Positions 50,360 to 54,943 of a DNA stretch of 64,000 nt are shown in pieces (within the stretch, counting starts at the first letter, position 1; each line of letters begins with the position of its first letter). Position numbers and translations under genes: made by a program. This DNA comes from Deltaproteobacteria bacterium (lineage in GTDB: Bacteria > Desulfobacterota > Deferrisomatia > Deferrisomatales > JACRMM01): NCBI GenBank assembly GCA_016214985.1, contig JACRMM010000030.1, forward strand, positions 186,001 through 250,000, in the 5' to 3' direction. Below the pieces are notes generated by a model, which was not told where the DNA came from, made no database searches, and was given only the letters and a program-made list of their open reading frames with translations.

Positions 50360-51072
50360 CGGCCGAGCCGGCCCTCGATGCCCGGAGGAAGACCCGCGAA
50401 GCGAACGCGCACCAGGGCGTCCAGGCCGCCAGAGAGGGCGCCGGAACGCGCCTGGACCACGACGCACGGAAGGTTGCGCACCCACTCGCCGCCGTCCAGC
50501 GCGACATGGAGCAGCGCCCGTTCGCCGGGGCCGGGTGGGGGAGAGGCGAGGGCGAGACGCGCGCCTCCGAAGCTCAGGTCCTTGAGCACGCACGGGCGGG
50601 CGCGATCCGAGAGGGATCGGGCGAGGCTCTCGAGGTGGGGCAGCGCGGAGCCCTTGGACGGCCGGGACCACGAATCTCTCACCGCCTCCGTCAACTCCTT
50701 TGAGCCCAGGGGGAGGAACTCGCCCTTCAGCGCCAGCGCAACCCGGAAGCTGTCGCGCCGGTTCCGGCGTTCGAGCGCGCCCGGGCCGAGGTCCACTCGA
50801 AGCGCCTCCTGCGGGACGCCGTTGACGACGACGGTGGCCGGTCCCGCGAAGACCCCGGTCACGATCACGAGCCCTGAGGATTCCGCGAACTGAAACACCG
50901 CGGGTTCGCCGAGAAGGAGGGGAAACGGGCCTTCGGAGCGAACCGGCGCCAGGTCGACGTGCCGGTCGTCGGCGTCGATGCACACGACGTCTCCCCACGC
51001 GCCGGTGGCTTGGGAGAGGAGGCCCCGGCGCTGGATCACCCGGCCGGCGAGGGTCGAAGTGTCAGGCGCCAA
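50308..51072 (-). CDS. PilZ-domain c-di-GMP-binding protein (YcgR-like)
   Basis: 254-residue flagellar-brake-type protein: an N-terminal YcgR-like barrel (about 1-100; VDLAPVRSEGPFPLLLGEP) and a C-terminal PilZ domain with both c-di-GMP motifs, the RxxxR in RRNRRDSFRVAL and D-x-S-x-x-G in LKDLSFGGARLALA. It overlaps the fliY stop by 11 bp and so belongs to fliM-fliY, making it a probable c-di-GMP-dependent motor regulator. The start is uncertain: TTG 51072 is preferred because it keeps the overlap short; the track start at 51123 would overlap fliY by about 60 bp. Confidence 0.83.
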   Translation of the reverse strand: MAPDTSTLAGRVIQRRGLLSQATGAWGDVVCIDADDRHVDLAPVRSEGPFPLLLGEPAVFQFAESSGLVIVTGVFAGPATVVVNGVPQEALRVDLGPGALERRNRRDSFRVALALKGEFLPLGSKELTEAVRDSWSRPSKGSALPHLESLARSLSDRARPCVLKDLSFGGARLALASPPPGPGERALLHVALDGGEWVRNLPCVVVQARSGALSGGLDALVRVRFAGLPPGIEGRLGRYLARAQLEQLKRGVRA

Positions 51073-52063
51073 GGCGGCGGATACGCTCCGAGGGCGACTC
51101 GATCTCGGTGATGCGCAGGGCAAAGTGGTCGGATCCGACCACCACGAGCTCCCCCTTGGCGATCACCTTGTCGTTGACCACGAGCTCCATGGGGGCTTCC
51201 GTGTCCTTGTCGAGGTCGACGATCGAGCCGGGCCTCAGCCGCTGTACCTCCCGAAGGGGCATGACCGCACCGCCGAGACGAACCATCACCTCCACCTCGA
51301 TGTCGAGGATGAGATCGATGTTGCGGATCTCTGCGGCCGGCGCCGGCCCGGGGCGGAAGGAGTCGAAGGTCGGAGGCGCCTGCGCCGGCCGGGCCGAAGG
51401 CGCGCGGGGCGGGGGGGCTTCCTCGGTAATCTCGCACGCGACGCGCGCGATCTCCTGGGCAACCTCGATCGGCAGCAGGAGGCGGAGCGGCGCGTCCAGC
51501 ACTCCCTCGACCCGGATCGTTCCGATCGCGAGAAAGGCGTGCTTCCAGGGCAACGATCGGGCTAGATCGCCCTGAGGCGCCTCGTCGAGCCTCGGGGCGC
51601 CGAAGCCGGTCTCGCGGCCGAGGGTGGCCGAGAGGACAGGGGCGCCGTTGCCCGCGATCTGGCTCAAGGCCTCCTTGAGCGCGTCGCGGTCCGACTCTTC
51701 CAGGGTCGCCTTCGCCGAGCCCTCACCGCCGAGGATCAGGTCGGCGAGCACCGATGCCTCCTGCGGGTGCAGGAGAAACGCCATCTCGCCGGAGAAGCCC
51801 GACCGGAAGGGGAAGACGGCGGTGAAGGAGGCTGCGGTGTCCAGGTCGCCGACATTGACGACCTGTCCCAGCCCCTCGACCACCGAGGCCGGGCGGGCGA
51901 GCAGGGTTGCCAGCGTCGAGTTGGCCGAGGCGAATAAGACGCGGGCGAGCTTCTCCAGGGCCTCCAGCTCCGACGTGCGCAACTCCGCGACGTCGGCCGC
52001 CGGCTCGGTCGCCGCCACGGTGAGGAGTCGATCGATCTCTTCTTGGCTCAGGATATCGGCCAC
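51062..52063 (-). CDS. fliY: Flagellar motor switch protein FliY (CheC-like plus FliN domain)
   Basis: 333-residue C-ring protein. The N-terminal peptide ADILSQEEIDRLL is the CheY-P-binding/FliM-like motif; the middle (about 40-200) is a CheC/FliM-like fold (FSGEMAFLLHPQEASVLADLI); the C-terminal SpoA domain (IDLILDIEVEVMVRLGGAVM, IVDLDKDTEAPMELVVNDK, GELVVVGSDHFALRI) equals FliN. The GTG start follows GAGGAGGCCGGCAG. It follows fliM by 57 bp and precedes the PilZ gene. Classical FliN lacks the middle domain, hence FliY. Confidence 0.92.
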   Translation of the reverse strand: MADILSQEEIDRLLTVAATEPAADVAELRTSELEALEKLARVLFASANSTLATLLARPASVVEGLGQVVNVGDLDTAASFTAVFPFRSGFSGEMAFLLHPQEASVLADLILGGEGSAKATLEESDRDALKEALSQIAGNGAPVLSATLGRETGFGAPRLDEAPQGDLARSLPWKHAFLAIGTIRVEGVLDAPLRLLLPIEVAQEIARVACEITEEAPPPRAPSARPAQAPPTFDSFRPGPAPAAEIRNIDLILDIEVEVMVRLGGAVMPLREVQRLRPGSIVDLDKDTEAPMELVVNDKVIAKGELVVVGSDHFALRITEIESPSERIRRLGA

Positions 52064-52120: not shown

Positions 52121-53176
52121 CTACCCCACGCCCTGAAGCGGCTCGAACAGGGCGTCGTCCTGCGGGCGGGGATCTTCGCGGGTGACGTGGGAGACGATCC
52201 GCGCCGCCTTGCGCCCCTTACGCGCGCCGAACAGGGCCTGGAACTTCGGCAATCCGGCCACGCGGACCGTAACCGGGGCCGTGACCTCCTTGTTGAGAGG
52301 CAAGAGGTCCCCGACCTGCATGCTCAGCAACTCGCGGATCGGAATCTTCCGTTCGGCCAGGTCGACGTTCAGGGTCGTGATCGCATCGGCCAGGACCTCA
52401 TCGAGCCGCCGGTGGTCCTCGTCGGTCATGCGGGTCGTGAAGTCGGTGCGGTTCTCCTGGCGCAGCTCCATCGCAAACGGGTCCAGGTAGATCGCCGGGA
52501 TGCAGAAGTTCATCATCCCCGAGGTCTGTCCGACCTTCACCTCGAAGACGACCACCACGACGATCTCGTTGGGCGCGACGATCTGGACGAGCTGCGGGCT
52601 CGTCTCCTGGCGCTCGAGAACGAAGGTGGTCTCTCCGATCGTCTGCCACGCCTCCCGAAGGTCGCGCAGCGCCATCTGAATGAAGCCCTCCACCAGGTGC
52701 TGCTCCAGCACCGTGATCTCCCGGTTCTGCGTCGGCGTCTCCGAGGACCCTCCCATCAGCTTCTCGATGATCGCGAACACGAGCGTGGGGTTCACCTCGT
52801 AGGCGAGCGTGCCCCCCTGGGGCTGGATGTCCACGACGTTGATGCAGGTGGTCTCCGGCAGGCTCATGAGGAACTCGGCGTAGGACAACTGGTCCACGCT
52901 CAGGAGCACGATGTCGGCGATCGTCCGCAGGTACGCGGAGAGGTTGAGGGCGAGGTTGCGGGCGTAGCGCTCGTGCAGGAAGTGCAGGCTCTGGAGGACG
53001 TTCTTGGAGATCCGGTTGGGCCGCTTGAAGTCGTAGCGCGTCGCGCGCTTCGTGTAGCGGGCCGGGCTCGGCGCCACCGGCTCGGGCGGTGCGGCGAGCT
53101 TCTGCGTCGCCTCCTCCACGAGGGGGACGCTCTGCAAGAGCGCGTTGACTTCGTCCTGAGAGAGGAGCTCCGACAC
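52121..53176 (-). CDS. fliM: Flagellar motor switch protein FliM
   Basis: 351-residue C-ring protein that binds CheY-P and sets rotation direction. The N-terminal CheY-binding peptide SELLSQDEVNALLQ, the central FliM fold (YDFKRPNRISKNVLQSLHFL, YARNLALNLSAYLR, IIEKLMGGSSETPTQNRE) and a C-terminal SpoA domain (KIPIRELLSMQVGDLLPLNK) are clear. The GTG start at 53176 has GAGG upstream. A sigma-28-like promoter whose -35 contains the fliA stop codon lies 66-93 bp upstream, so fliM-fliY-pilZ may form a separate late transcript. Confidence 0.94.
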   Translation of the reverse strand: MSELLSQDEVNALLQSVPLVEEATQKLAAPPEPVAPSPARYTKRATRYDFKRPNRISKNVLQSLHFLHERYARNLALNLSAYLRTIADIVLLSVDQLSYAEFLMSLPETTCINVVDIQPQGGTLAYEVNPTLVFAIIEKLMGGSSETPTQNREITVLEQHLVEGFIQMALRDLREAWQTIGETTFVLERQETSPQLVQIVAPNEIVVVVVFEVKVGQTSGMMNFCIPAIYLDPFAMELRQENRTDFTTRMTDEDHRRLDEVLADAITTLNVDLAERKIPIRELLSMQVGDLLPLNKEVTAPVTVRVAGLPKFQALFGARKGRKAARIVSHVTREDPRPQDDALFEPLQGVG

Positions 53177-53241: not shown

Positions 53242-53269
53242 TTATCGTTTCGCGGCGCCCGATTCTTTA
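53242..53269 (-). promoter_or_regulatory. Sigma-28-like promoter for fliM-fliY-pilZ
   Basis: Minus strand TAAAGAAT (53269-53262), 12-bp spacer, AACGATAA (53249-53242). Matches TAAAGTTT at 6/8 and GCCGATAA at 6/8. The first TAA of the -35 is the fliA stop codon. Confidence 0.6.
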
Positions 53270-53992
53270 GACCAGTCCTTCCAGCACACCCCGCAACCTC
53301 AAGATCGCCGACGAGTGCAGCTGGCTCACTCGCGACTCGGTGACACCGAGAACCTTGCCTACTTCCTTCATGGTCAGCTCGTTGTAGTAGTAGAGCGAGA
53401 CGACCATGCGCTCCTTGTCCGGGAGTCCGTCGATCTGGTTCGCCAGGACGTCACGCACCTCCTGGCGCTTGAGCACCTCGAAGGGGCTCTTCTCCGGCTC
53501 GTCGGGGATGAACTCCCCGAGCTCCTTCACCTCCTCGTCGCCCTCCTCCGCCTTGGGGCGGTTCAGGGACAGGAGCGACAAGCCGCGGGCCTTGTAGAGG
53601 AGGTCGCTGAACTCTCCCATCGACACGCCGAGAGCCTCGGCCGCCTCCTCGTGGGTCGCCGGCCGCTTGTTCTTCTGCTCGAGCTCCCGGAACACGTGGG
53701 AGAGCTCGCGCTCCTTGCGGCGCATGGAGCGCGGCGCCCAGTCCTGGCGGCGGAGATAGTCGAGCATCGCGCCGCGGATCCGGAACTCCGCGTACGTCTT
53801 GAACTTGACGCCGCGGTCCGTCACGAACTTGTCGATGGCGTCGATGAGCCCCAGGATGCCGGTGTTGATCAGGTCCTCCACCTCGATGGAGGCCGGCAGG
53901 CGCGCGGAGAGCCGCTCGGCGATGTACTTGACGAGGGGCGCGTACTCCTCGATGAGCTCGTCCCTGGCGGGCCGCAGATCGCCGGTTGGAAT
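53267..53992 (-). CDS. fliA: Flagellar sigma factor sigma-28 (FliA), probable ATT start
   Basis: Sigma factor for late flagellar genes. The track ORF starts at an internal GTG (53881) and lacks region 2.1, but the same frame continues upstream with the essential EYAPLVKYIAERLSARLP, so the real start is further left. No ATG, GTG or TTG exists in frame after the promoter. An ATT at 53992 sits 8 bp after GGAG and gives 241 residues, the usual FliA length. Regions 2 (VKFKTYAEFRIRGAMLDYLR), 3 and 4 (LTMKEVGKVLGVTESRVSQLHS) are intact. A CTG at 53977 is the alternative start. Confidence 0.88.
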   Translation of the reverse strand: MPTGDLRPARDELIEEYAPLVKYIAERLSARLPASIEVEDLINTGILGLIDAIDKFVTDRGVKFKTYAEFRIRGAMLDYLRRQDWAPRSMRRKERELSHVFRELEQKNKRPATHEEAAEALGVSMGEFSDLLYKARGLSLLSLNRPKAEEGDEEVKELGEFIPDEPEKSPFEVLKRQEVRDVLANQIDGLPDKERMVVSLYYYNELTMKEVGKVLGVTESRVSQLHSSAILRLRGVLEGLV

Positions 53993-54050
53993 GGCCGTCT
54001 CTCCTGGAGGAGGCGGTGAACAGAGCGGAGATGGGGCGGAATCCGGGCGT

Positions 54051-54080
54051 ATCCTAGCATCGGGGCTCCGGAGGTGTCAA
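54051..54080 (-). promoter_or_regulatory. Sigma-70-like promoter of fliA
   Basis: Minus strand TTGACA (54080-54075), 18-bp spacer, TAGGAT (54056-54051; 4/6). It follows the terminator of the upstream gene and would start RNA near 54044, about 50 nt before the ATT start codon. Confidence 0.7.
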
Positions 54081-54174: not shown

Positions 54175-54513
54175 TCAGCCGAGGTACAGGGGACGCAGGA
54201 GCGCGTCCAGGTCCTCCGGCGTCACCGACTCGTCTCGCAATTCCTCCCCGTGGCGGGCGATCAGCTCGTCTGTCGTGCTGCGAACCTGCTCCGAGCGCTG
54301 CTCCGGGGGAAGGTTCGGCTGGCGGCCGTCGACCACCTGGGCGGCGAATTGGCCGATCCACTGCGCCTTGCGCGCGGTGGCGCTCAGGGTGAGCTGGTCC
54401 GGGGACCGGCTCGCCTGGCTCGCCTCCGACGTGCGGCGGGGGATTCGACCGACGCGCTCCTGGCGGTTGTACGTCCGCAGCACGTTGTGGACCGCGAACT
54501 CCGAGATGCCCAT
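54175..54513 (-). CDS. FlgM-associated DVU0524-like flagellar protein
   Basis: 112-residue protein resembling the DVU0524 family described as FlgM-associated in deltaproteobacteria. The N-terminus MGISEFAVHNVLRTYNRQER is the recognisable part; the C-terminal half is helical and acidic. It has only weak similarity to FlgM itself, so an anti-sigma-28 role is a guess from position, directly upstream of fliA and under its own sigma-28-like promoter. ATG 54513 follows AAGGATGGGG. A terminator follows the stop. Confidence 0.6.
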   Translation of the reverse strand: MGISEFAVHNVLRTYNRQERVGRIPRRTSEASQASRSPDQLTLSATARKAQWIGQFAAQVVDGRQPNLPPEQRSEQVRSTTDELIARHGEELRDESVTPEDLDALLRPLYLG

Positions 54514-54598: not shown

Positions 54599-54943
54599 TC
54601 AGCGCCGACCGTAGGCGGCCATGACGCGGCGGGGCGGCGGCGCCGCTGCCGAGACCGGGGGAGGCGTCGCGGCCCGGCACCGGTCCTCGGAGGCGACGAC
54701 CTCGCTCAGGATCCGCCGCAGCGTCTCGACCCCCTGCTGGAACTGCGGGGCGCTGCGGTCGGCCTCGGCGGGAATCCCGGCCAGGAGGGCATGTGCCCGG
54801 TCGAGCAGGGTGAACTTCTCGGAGACGACCGCGGGCAGCTCGGACACGTTGGTCCCCGCCAGGATCCGCTCCTGGCGGAGCGTGAGCTCGAGGATCGTCC
54901 GGTAGAGTGCCTCGACGTGGGCGAGAATTTCGACGGGGTCCAT
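54599..54943 (-). CDS. FlgN-like flagellar export chaperone
   Basis: 114-residue predicted helical protein. ATG 54943 (MDPVEILAHVEALYRTILEL) starts a long amphipathic helix typical of FlgN, with the pair ERILAGTNVSELPAVVSEKF in the position where FlgN helices turn. The C-terminal 25 residues are Pro/Ala/Arg-rich and may bind hook-associated proteins. FlgN chaperones FlgK and FlgL, which are not in the window. Sequence similarity within the family is low, so the call rests on length, helix pattern and placement among fliS, fliD and fliA. Confidence 0.6.
   Translation of the reverse strand: MDPVEILAHVEALYRTILELTLRQERILAGTNVSELPAVVSEKFTLLDRAHALLAGIPAEADRSAPQFQQGVETLRRILSEVVASEDRCRAATPPPVSAAAPPPRRVMAAYGRR

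Follow-up and report, generated by a model that had tools for sequence, protein, structure and literature searches.

A conserved, probable AUU start codon of fliA suggests translational limitation of the flagellar sigma factor in the order Deferrisomatales

The E. coli gene pcnB begins with an AUU codon, which limits the amount of a protein that is harmful in excess. In Streptomyces, the sigma factor gene sigR starts with a GTC codon whose use is repressed by IF3; this start keeps the anti-sigma factor in excess of the sigma factor, and its replacement by ATG, GTG or TTG led to uncontrolled activity (PMC5472188). The same paper notes an excess of anti-sigma factor for the E. coli FliA/FlgM pair (PMC5472188). 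In Staphylococcus, the conserved starts of cvfC1 (AUU) and ccpN (AUA) attenuate expression (PMC13009471). Apart from AUG, GUG and UUG, start codons are vanishingly rare, and one reconstruction found a single switch to AUU among 61,358 ancestral AUG starts (PMC5622118). Here, we describe fliA of a member of the Deferrisomatales, which very likely belongs to this small group of genes. The stretch of DNA analysed, 64,000 nucleotides in length, is referred to below as the window.

An open frame running from 54076 to 53267 on the minus strand of the window encodes a FliA/WhiG sigma factor. The product matches TIGR02479 with 268.6 bits (cut-off 189.6), which places it in the FliA/WhiG sigma-28 family, and contains Sigma70 regions 2, 3 and 4 (PF04542, PF04539 and PF04545). 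Upstream, the frame is closed by a TGA at 54079-54077, inside the -35 box TTGACA of the predicted promoter (Table 1). No ATG, GTG, TTG or CTG is present among the codons from 54076 to 53992, and the frame as a whole is free of ATG, GTG and TTG between the upstream TGA and codon 38. The match to Sigma70_r2 begins at residue 13; therefore, a start at codon 38 (GTG 53881) would drop region 2.1, and fliA is left with no in-frame AUG, GUG or UUG that could serve as a start. The initial annotation had placed the start at an ATT at 53992, preceded at a distance of 8 bp by GGAG and yielding a protein of normal length. The coordinates are right, the GGAG occupies 54004-54001 with an 8-nt spacer, and the length is indeed normal. 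Its further statements, that no ATG, GTG or TTG follows the predicted transcription start in frame and that region 2.1 is encoded 5' of the first GTG, were borne out by reading of the frame.

Table 1. Features of the fliA region of the window
Feature	Position	Strand	Remarks
Promoter	54051..54080	-	TTGACA-N18-TAGGAT, TG before -10 (extended); sole promoter-like site in the 1.6 kb scanned
Shine-Dalgarno AGGAG	54001..54005	-	8 nt before ATT; all 5 genera share the same GGAG and CGGCC-ATT
fliA ATT start codon	53990..53992	-	No upstream in-frame canonical start; ATT in 7/7 flagellated genomes
fliA coding sequence	53267..53992	-	241 codons and stop, read from ATT
GTG, codon 38 of fliA	53879..53881	-	Earliest canonical codon in frame; lies within region 2.1; not accepted as start
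fliM	52121..53176	-	Next after fliA; GTG start; TIGR01397, 279.7 bits
fliN/fliY-like gene	51062..52063	-	GTG start; FliMN_C
DVU0524-family FlgM-associated gene	54175..54513	-	Upstream of fliA; ATG start; NF041863, 49.1 bits

Of the 12 genomes of the order that were compared, 11 contain a fliA orthologue. In all seven flagellated genomes (G000, G001, G002, G004, G006, G008 and G010), which represent five genera and three families and were assembled separately, the homologous codon is ATT; three of the seven belong to one genus and have nearly identical fliA genes, so that the seven effectively count as five independent lineages. The Shine-Dalgarno sequence and the AUU are conserved together, as a block GGAG...CGGCC-ATT that is followed, after exactly eight codons and with no insertion or deletion, by a conserved AGG-GAC core. 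FlgM, FliM and FlhA occur, among the genomes compared within the order, in exactly these seven, and in a tree of FliA the seven separate from the sister group, family f3.

If the ATT were incidental, FliA would begin elsewhere, at CTG 53977, at GTG 53881, or, if the transcript is longer, at a codon further upstream. A CTG is able to initiate weakly, and the f4 genomes have GTG and TTG codons upstream. However, CTG 53977, which the initial annotation had named as an alternative start, is not conserved (the aligned codons elsewhere are CCC, TTC, CCA and CCC) and lies 23 nt from the Shine-Dalgarno sequence. GTG 53881 is absent from G002 and G006, where the earliest canonical codon of fliA is at least codon 76. 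As for upstream codons, the frame is stopped in or beside the promoter, with no canonical codon following, in three genomes (that of the window, G001 and G002). In the f4 genus, which contributes three of the seven genomes, an in-frame GTG lies within the Shine-Dalgarno sequence itself (GAAGGAGTG). G006 contains two in-frame candidates, an ATG in the -10 box and a TTG in the leader. All three codons lack both conservation in the other genomes and a suitable Shine-Dalgarno sequence. An ATG at 54060 of the window, which overlaps the -10 box, was rejected, being out of frame and 5' of the predicted transcription start. We consider a start of FliA at any of these other codons very unlikely and, judging from the sequences compared, have high confidence that AUU is the authentic start.

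Among the internal isoleucine codons of the seven fliA genes, 81 out of 82 are ATC and one is ATT. Thus, the ATT at the start is no ordinary isoleucine codon. The share of ATT among isoleucine codons in these genomes is ca. 5-11%, and the chance that ATT was kept as a plain isoleucine codon in five genera is ca. 1e-6 to 1e-5, if the genera are treated as independent. The 106 FliA-family loci of a first screen came from the order, the phylum to which it belongs, and named genomes spread over many phyla. Only three of them (L001, L007 and L008), all from this order, had no canonical codon before region 2.1; in the remaining four ATT genomes, the canonical codons are all non-conserved and located in the promoter, the leader or the Shine-Dalgarno sequence. 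A second screen covered the 102 genes of the window genome that had compared orthologues. Four candidates were inspected, and fliA alone was without a canonical start: fliN proved to be an alignment-edge effect, its start being canonical in those very genomes, another gene has an ATG only a few codons downstream, and the third was a wrong-frame open reading frame.

The window genome is an unfinished assembly of 72 contigs, and the initial annotation had named, as a possible refutation, an ATG or a frameshift masked by faulty sequence. However, six other assemblies, that of the single-contig genome G004 included, have the same ATT, and this conservation refutes the concern; an error of this kind can for practical purposes be dismissed. 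It could also be argued that the start block is kept for another reason, as the beginning of an antisense reading frame or as a protein-binding site, since the reverse complement of CCATT creates an opposite-strand ATG in all seven genomes and CGGCC is strictly conserved. However, the lengths of the antisense frames (133, 13, 20, 47, 134, 38 and 134 codons, within 400 bases) are not conserved, and with either function fliA would still be left without a start. We regard this explanation as highly improbable.

The elements that surround an AUU start of fliA were also analysed. The predicted energy of the Shine-Dalgarno duplex ranges from -6.4 to -9.6 kcal/mol in the seven ATT genomes and beats most shuffled sequences in six of them, the exception being G001. 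One sigma-70-type site was found in the fliA region, versus 0.1 expected in shuffled sequences, and the promoter can be aligned and recognised at each of the 11 fliA loci in the order. The predicted leader, from a predicted transcription start near 54044, is ca. 50 nt long, and its sequence and length between the promoter and the Shine-Dalgarno sequence differ among the seven ATT genomes. No conserved RNA structure beyond chance was found in the leader (consensus energy of -4.3 kcal/mol). Folding z-scores were near zero or positive in four out of five genomes, and only the G006 leader folds better than its shuffled versions. On these grounds, a riboswitch or a structured leader RNA was rejected. 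Therefore, the codon itself is the sole pointer to regulation.

Canonical starts are present at homologous positions in the neighbouring genes: fliM starts with GTG or ATG in all seven ATT genomes, the fliN/fliY-like gene with GTG or ATG in six, and the flgM-associated gene with ATG in six, so that the choice between GTG and ATG varies in fliM and fliN. The order fliA-fliM-fliN-(PilZ) is kept in those ATT genomes whose contigs are long enough. A terminator scan revealed a terminator-like hairpin at 54125-54112, after the flgM-associated gene, and the promoter scan detected no further promoter in the region covered. We infer that fliA, fliM and fliN form one transcript. The cognate anti-sigma factor is encoded in the same genomes, as each of the seven contains two PF04316 FlgM loci; the f3 genomes contain none. 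The FlgM loci never adjoin fliA in the flagellated genomes (in the window genome, they are at G000:C30:54030-54194 and G000:C64:149416-149571). A FlgN-like gene with a weak Pfam FlgN match (E 0.017) lies at 54599-54943 of the window and is conserved beside the flgM-associated gene.

We propose that fliA is translated from AUU and that, as the initial annotation had suggested, the weakness of this codon limits FliA output, a reading that we consider probable as a whole; if the AUU start is taken as authentic, we would strongly expect it to act as a limiter. The strong, conserved sigma-70-type promoter would drive synthesis of an mRNA that appears to carry fliM and fliN in addition to fliA, and would supply structural proteins required in many copies. 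On this mRNA, a good Shine-Dalgarno sequence would position the ribosome at the AUU, while the mismatch between AUU and the initiator tRNA, disfavoured by IF3, would lead to low FliA. FliA, presumably a regulator required in small amounts and opposed by FlgM, would thus be held low relative both to this anti-sigma factor and to FliM and FliN, the C-ring proteins, whose downstream genes have normal start codons.

In all readable genomes of the order (loci L116-L125 and L127), infC starts with ATC, or with ATA in one genus, after AGGAGGTG; therefore, these cells very likely have IF3-type discrimination against non-AUG codons. By analogy, fliA may depend on IF3 as well. A narrower form of our proposal, which does not exclude the broader one, is that AUU sets a fixed low dose of FliA with no dynamic control by IF3 or growth state. 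The strong promoter and the gene order shared with fliM and fliN are consistent with a fixed dose, as are the folding results, in which no extra regulatory element was seen in the leader, and the static attenuation by the AUU of cvfC1, for which no effect of media was found (PMC13009471). Against it are the AUC or AUA start of infC in this order, a mark of IF3-responsive control, and the fact that IF3 control of the sigR type has been demonstrated in Streptomyces. We give the fixed dose a somewhat less than even chance. More tentatively, and with greater doubt, fliA may belong to an IF3 regulon of the order, in which AUU couples FliA synthesis to the ratio of IF3 to ribosomes; if so, commitment to late flagellar genes would follow the translational state of the cell.

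The sister family f3 (genomes G003, G005, G007, G009 and G011) has no FliM, FlhA or FlgM. A FliA/WhiG-type sigma factor is encoded in four out of five f3 genomes and adjoins a small conserved protein at the loci read; given the lack of FliM, FlhA and FlgM, this homologue is probably non-flagellar. Its gene starts with ATA and ATC in two species of one genus and with ATG in two species of another. The first two were set aside as firm support for non-canonical initiation, because other starts are available to them: in G003 (ATA), codon 7 is an in-frame TTG, and in G011 (ATC), TTG and GTG codons are found upstream. In the other genus, g8 (L015 and L016), the ATG of the sigma-28 homologue lies ca. 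7 nt past a TAGATT -10 box, and in L016 the stop codon of the preceding gene directly abuts the -35 element TTGACT. With so short a distance from the -10 box, the g8 mRNA is probably leaderless or nearly so. Translation of leaderless mRNA has also been reported to be inhibited by IF3 (PMC2268962), and a parallel in IF3 sensitivity between leaderless f3 mRNA and AUU-initiated fliA is offered as a lead only. If fliA were part of an IF3 regulon, the f3 homologue, with its ATA, ATC or apparently leaderless ATG, would retain IF3 sensitivity in a different way.

The fixation of ATT in the flagellated members of the order suggests that a weak start has been kept by selection to limit FliA. Because AUU starts are so rare, the fixation of AUU across several families in the gene of a master sigma factor strongly indicates that start strength is under selection. 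Together, fliA and sigR suggest that throttling through the start codon has repeatedly been directed at sigma factors. On a practical side, annotation programs limited to ATG, GTG and TTG starts would place the FliA start wrongly in these genomes. Our literature search found no paper pairing fliA with "non-canonical start codon", and titles and abstracts on fliA, FlgM, start codons and translation initiation mentioned no such case except that of the sigR paper.

We rate the fliA AUU as a new, well-conserved case alongside the known start-codon-throttled genes. It shares the AUU start with pcnB, which, in contrast, encodes a poly(A) polymerase and no sigma factor. With infC (AUU in E. coli and, in the order analysed here, AUC or AUA), it has in common a start of the AUU/AUC/AUA type combined with a Shine-Dalgarno sequence, and conservation of the non-AUG identity; infC, however, is part of the IF3 autoregulatory loop, whereas fliA would be a separate target. 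Like fliA, ccpN and cvfC1 have a conserved non-canonical start, which in these two genes attenuates expression, and cvfC1 is first in its operon, as fliA appears to be, but both are Gram-positive genes with an extended Shine-Dalgarno sequence and evidence from ribosome profiling and reporters. The closest precedent is Streptomyces sigR. There, the start is GTC rather than ATT, the product is an oxidative-stress and not a flagellar sigma-28 factor, the effect is experimentally proven, and the anti-sigma gene is cotranscribed, whereas the PF04316 FlgM genes are elsewhere in the genome relative to fliA. Nevertheless, both genes encode a sigma factor with an anti-sigma partner, both combine a taxon-wide conserved non-canonical start with a good Shine-Dalgarno sequence, and sigR and fliA of the f4 genus even share a decoy GTG inside that sequence.
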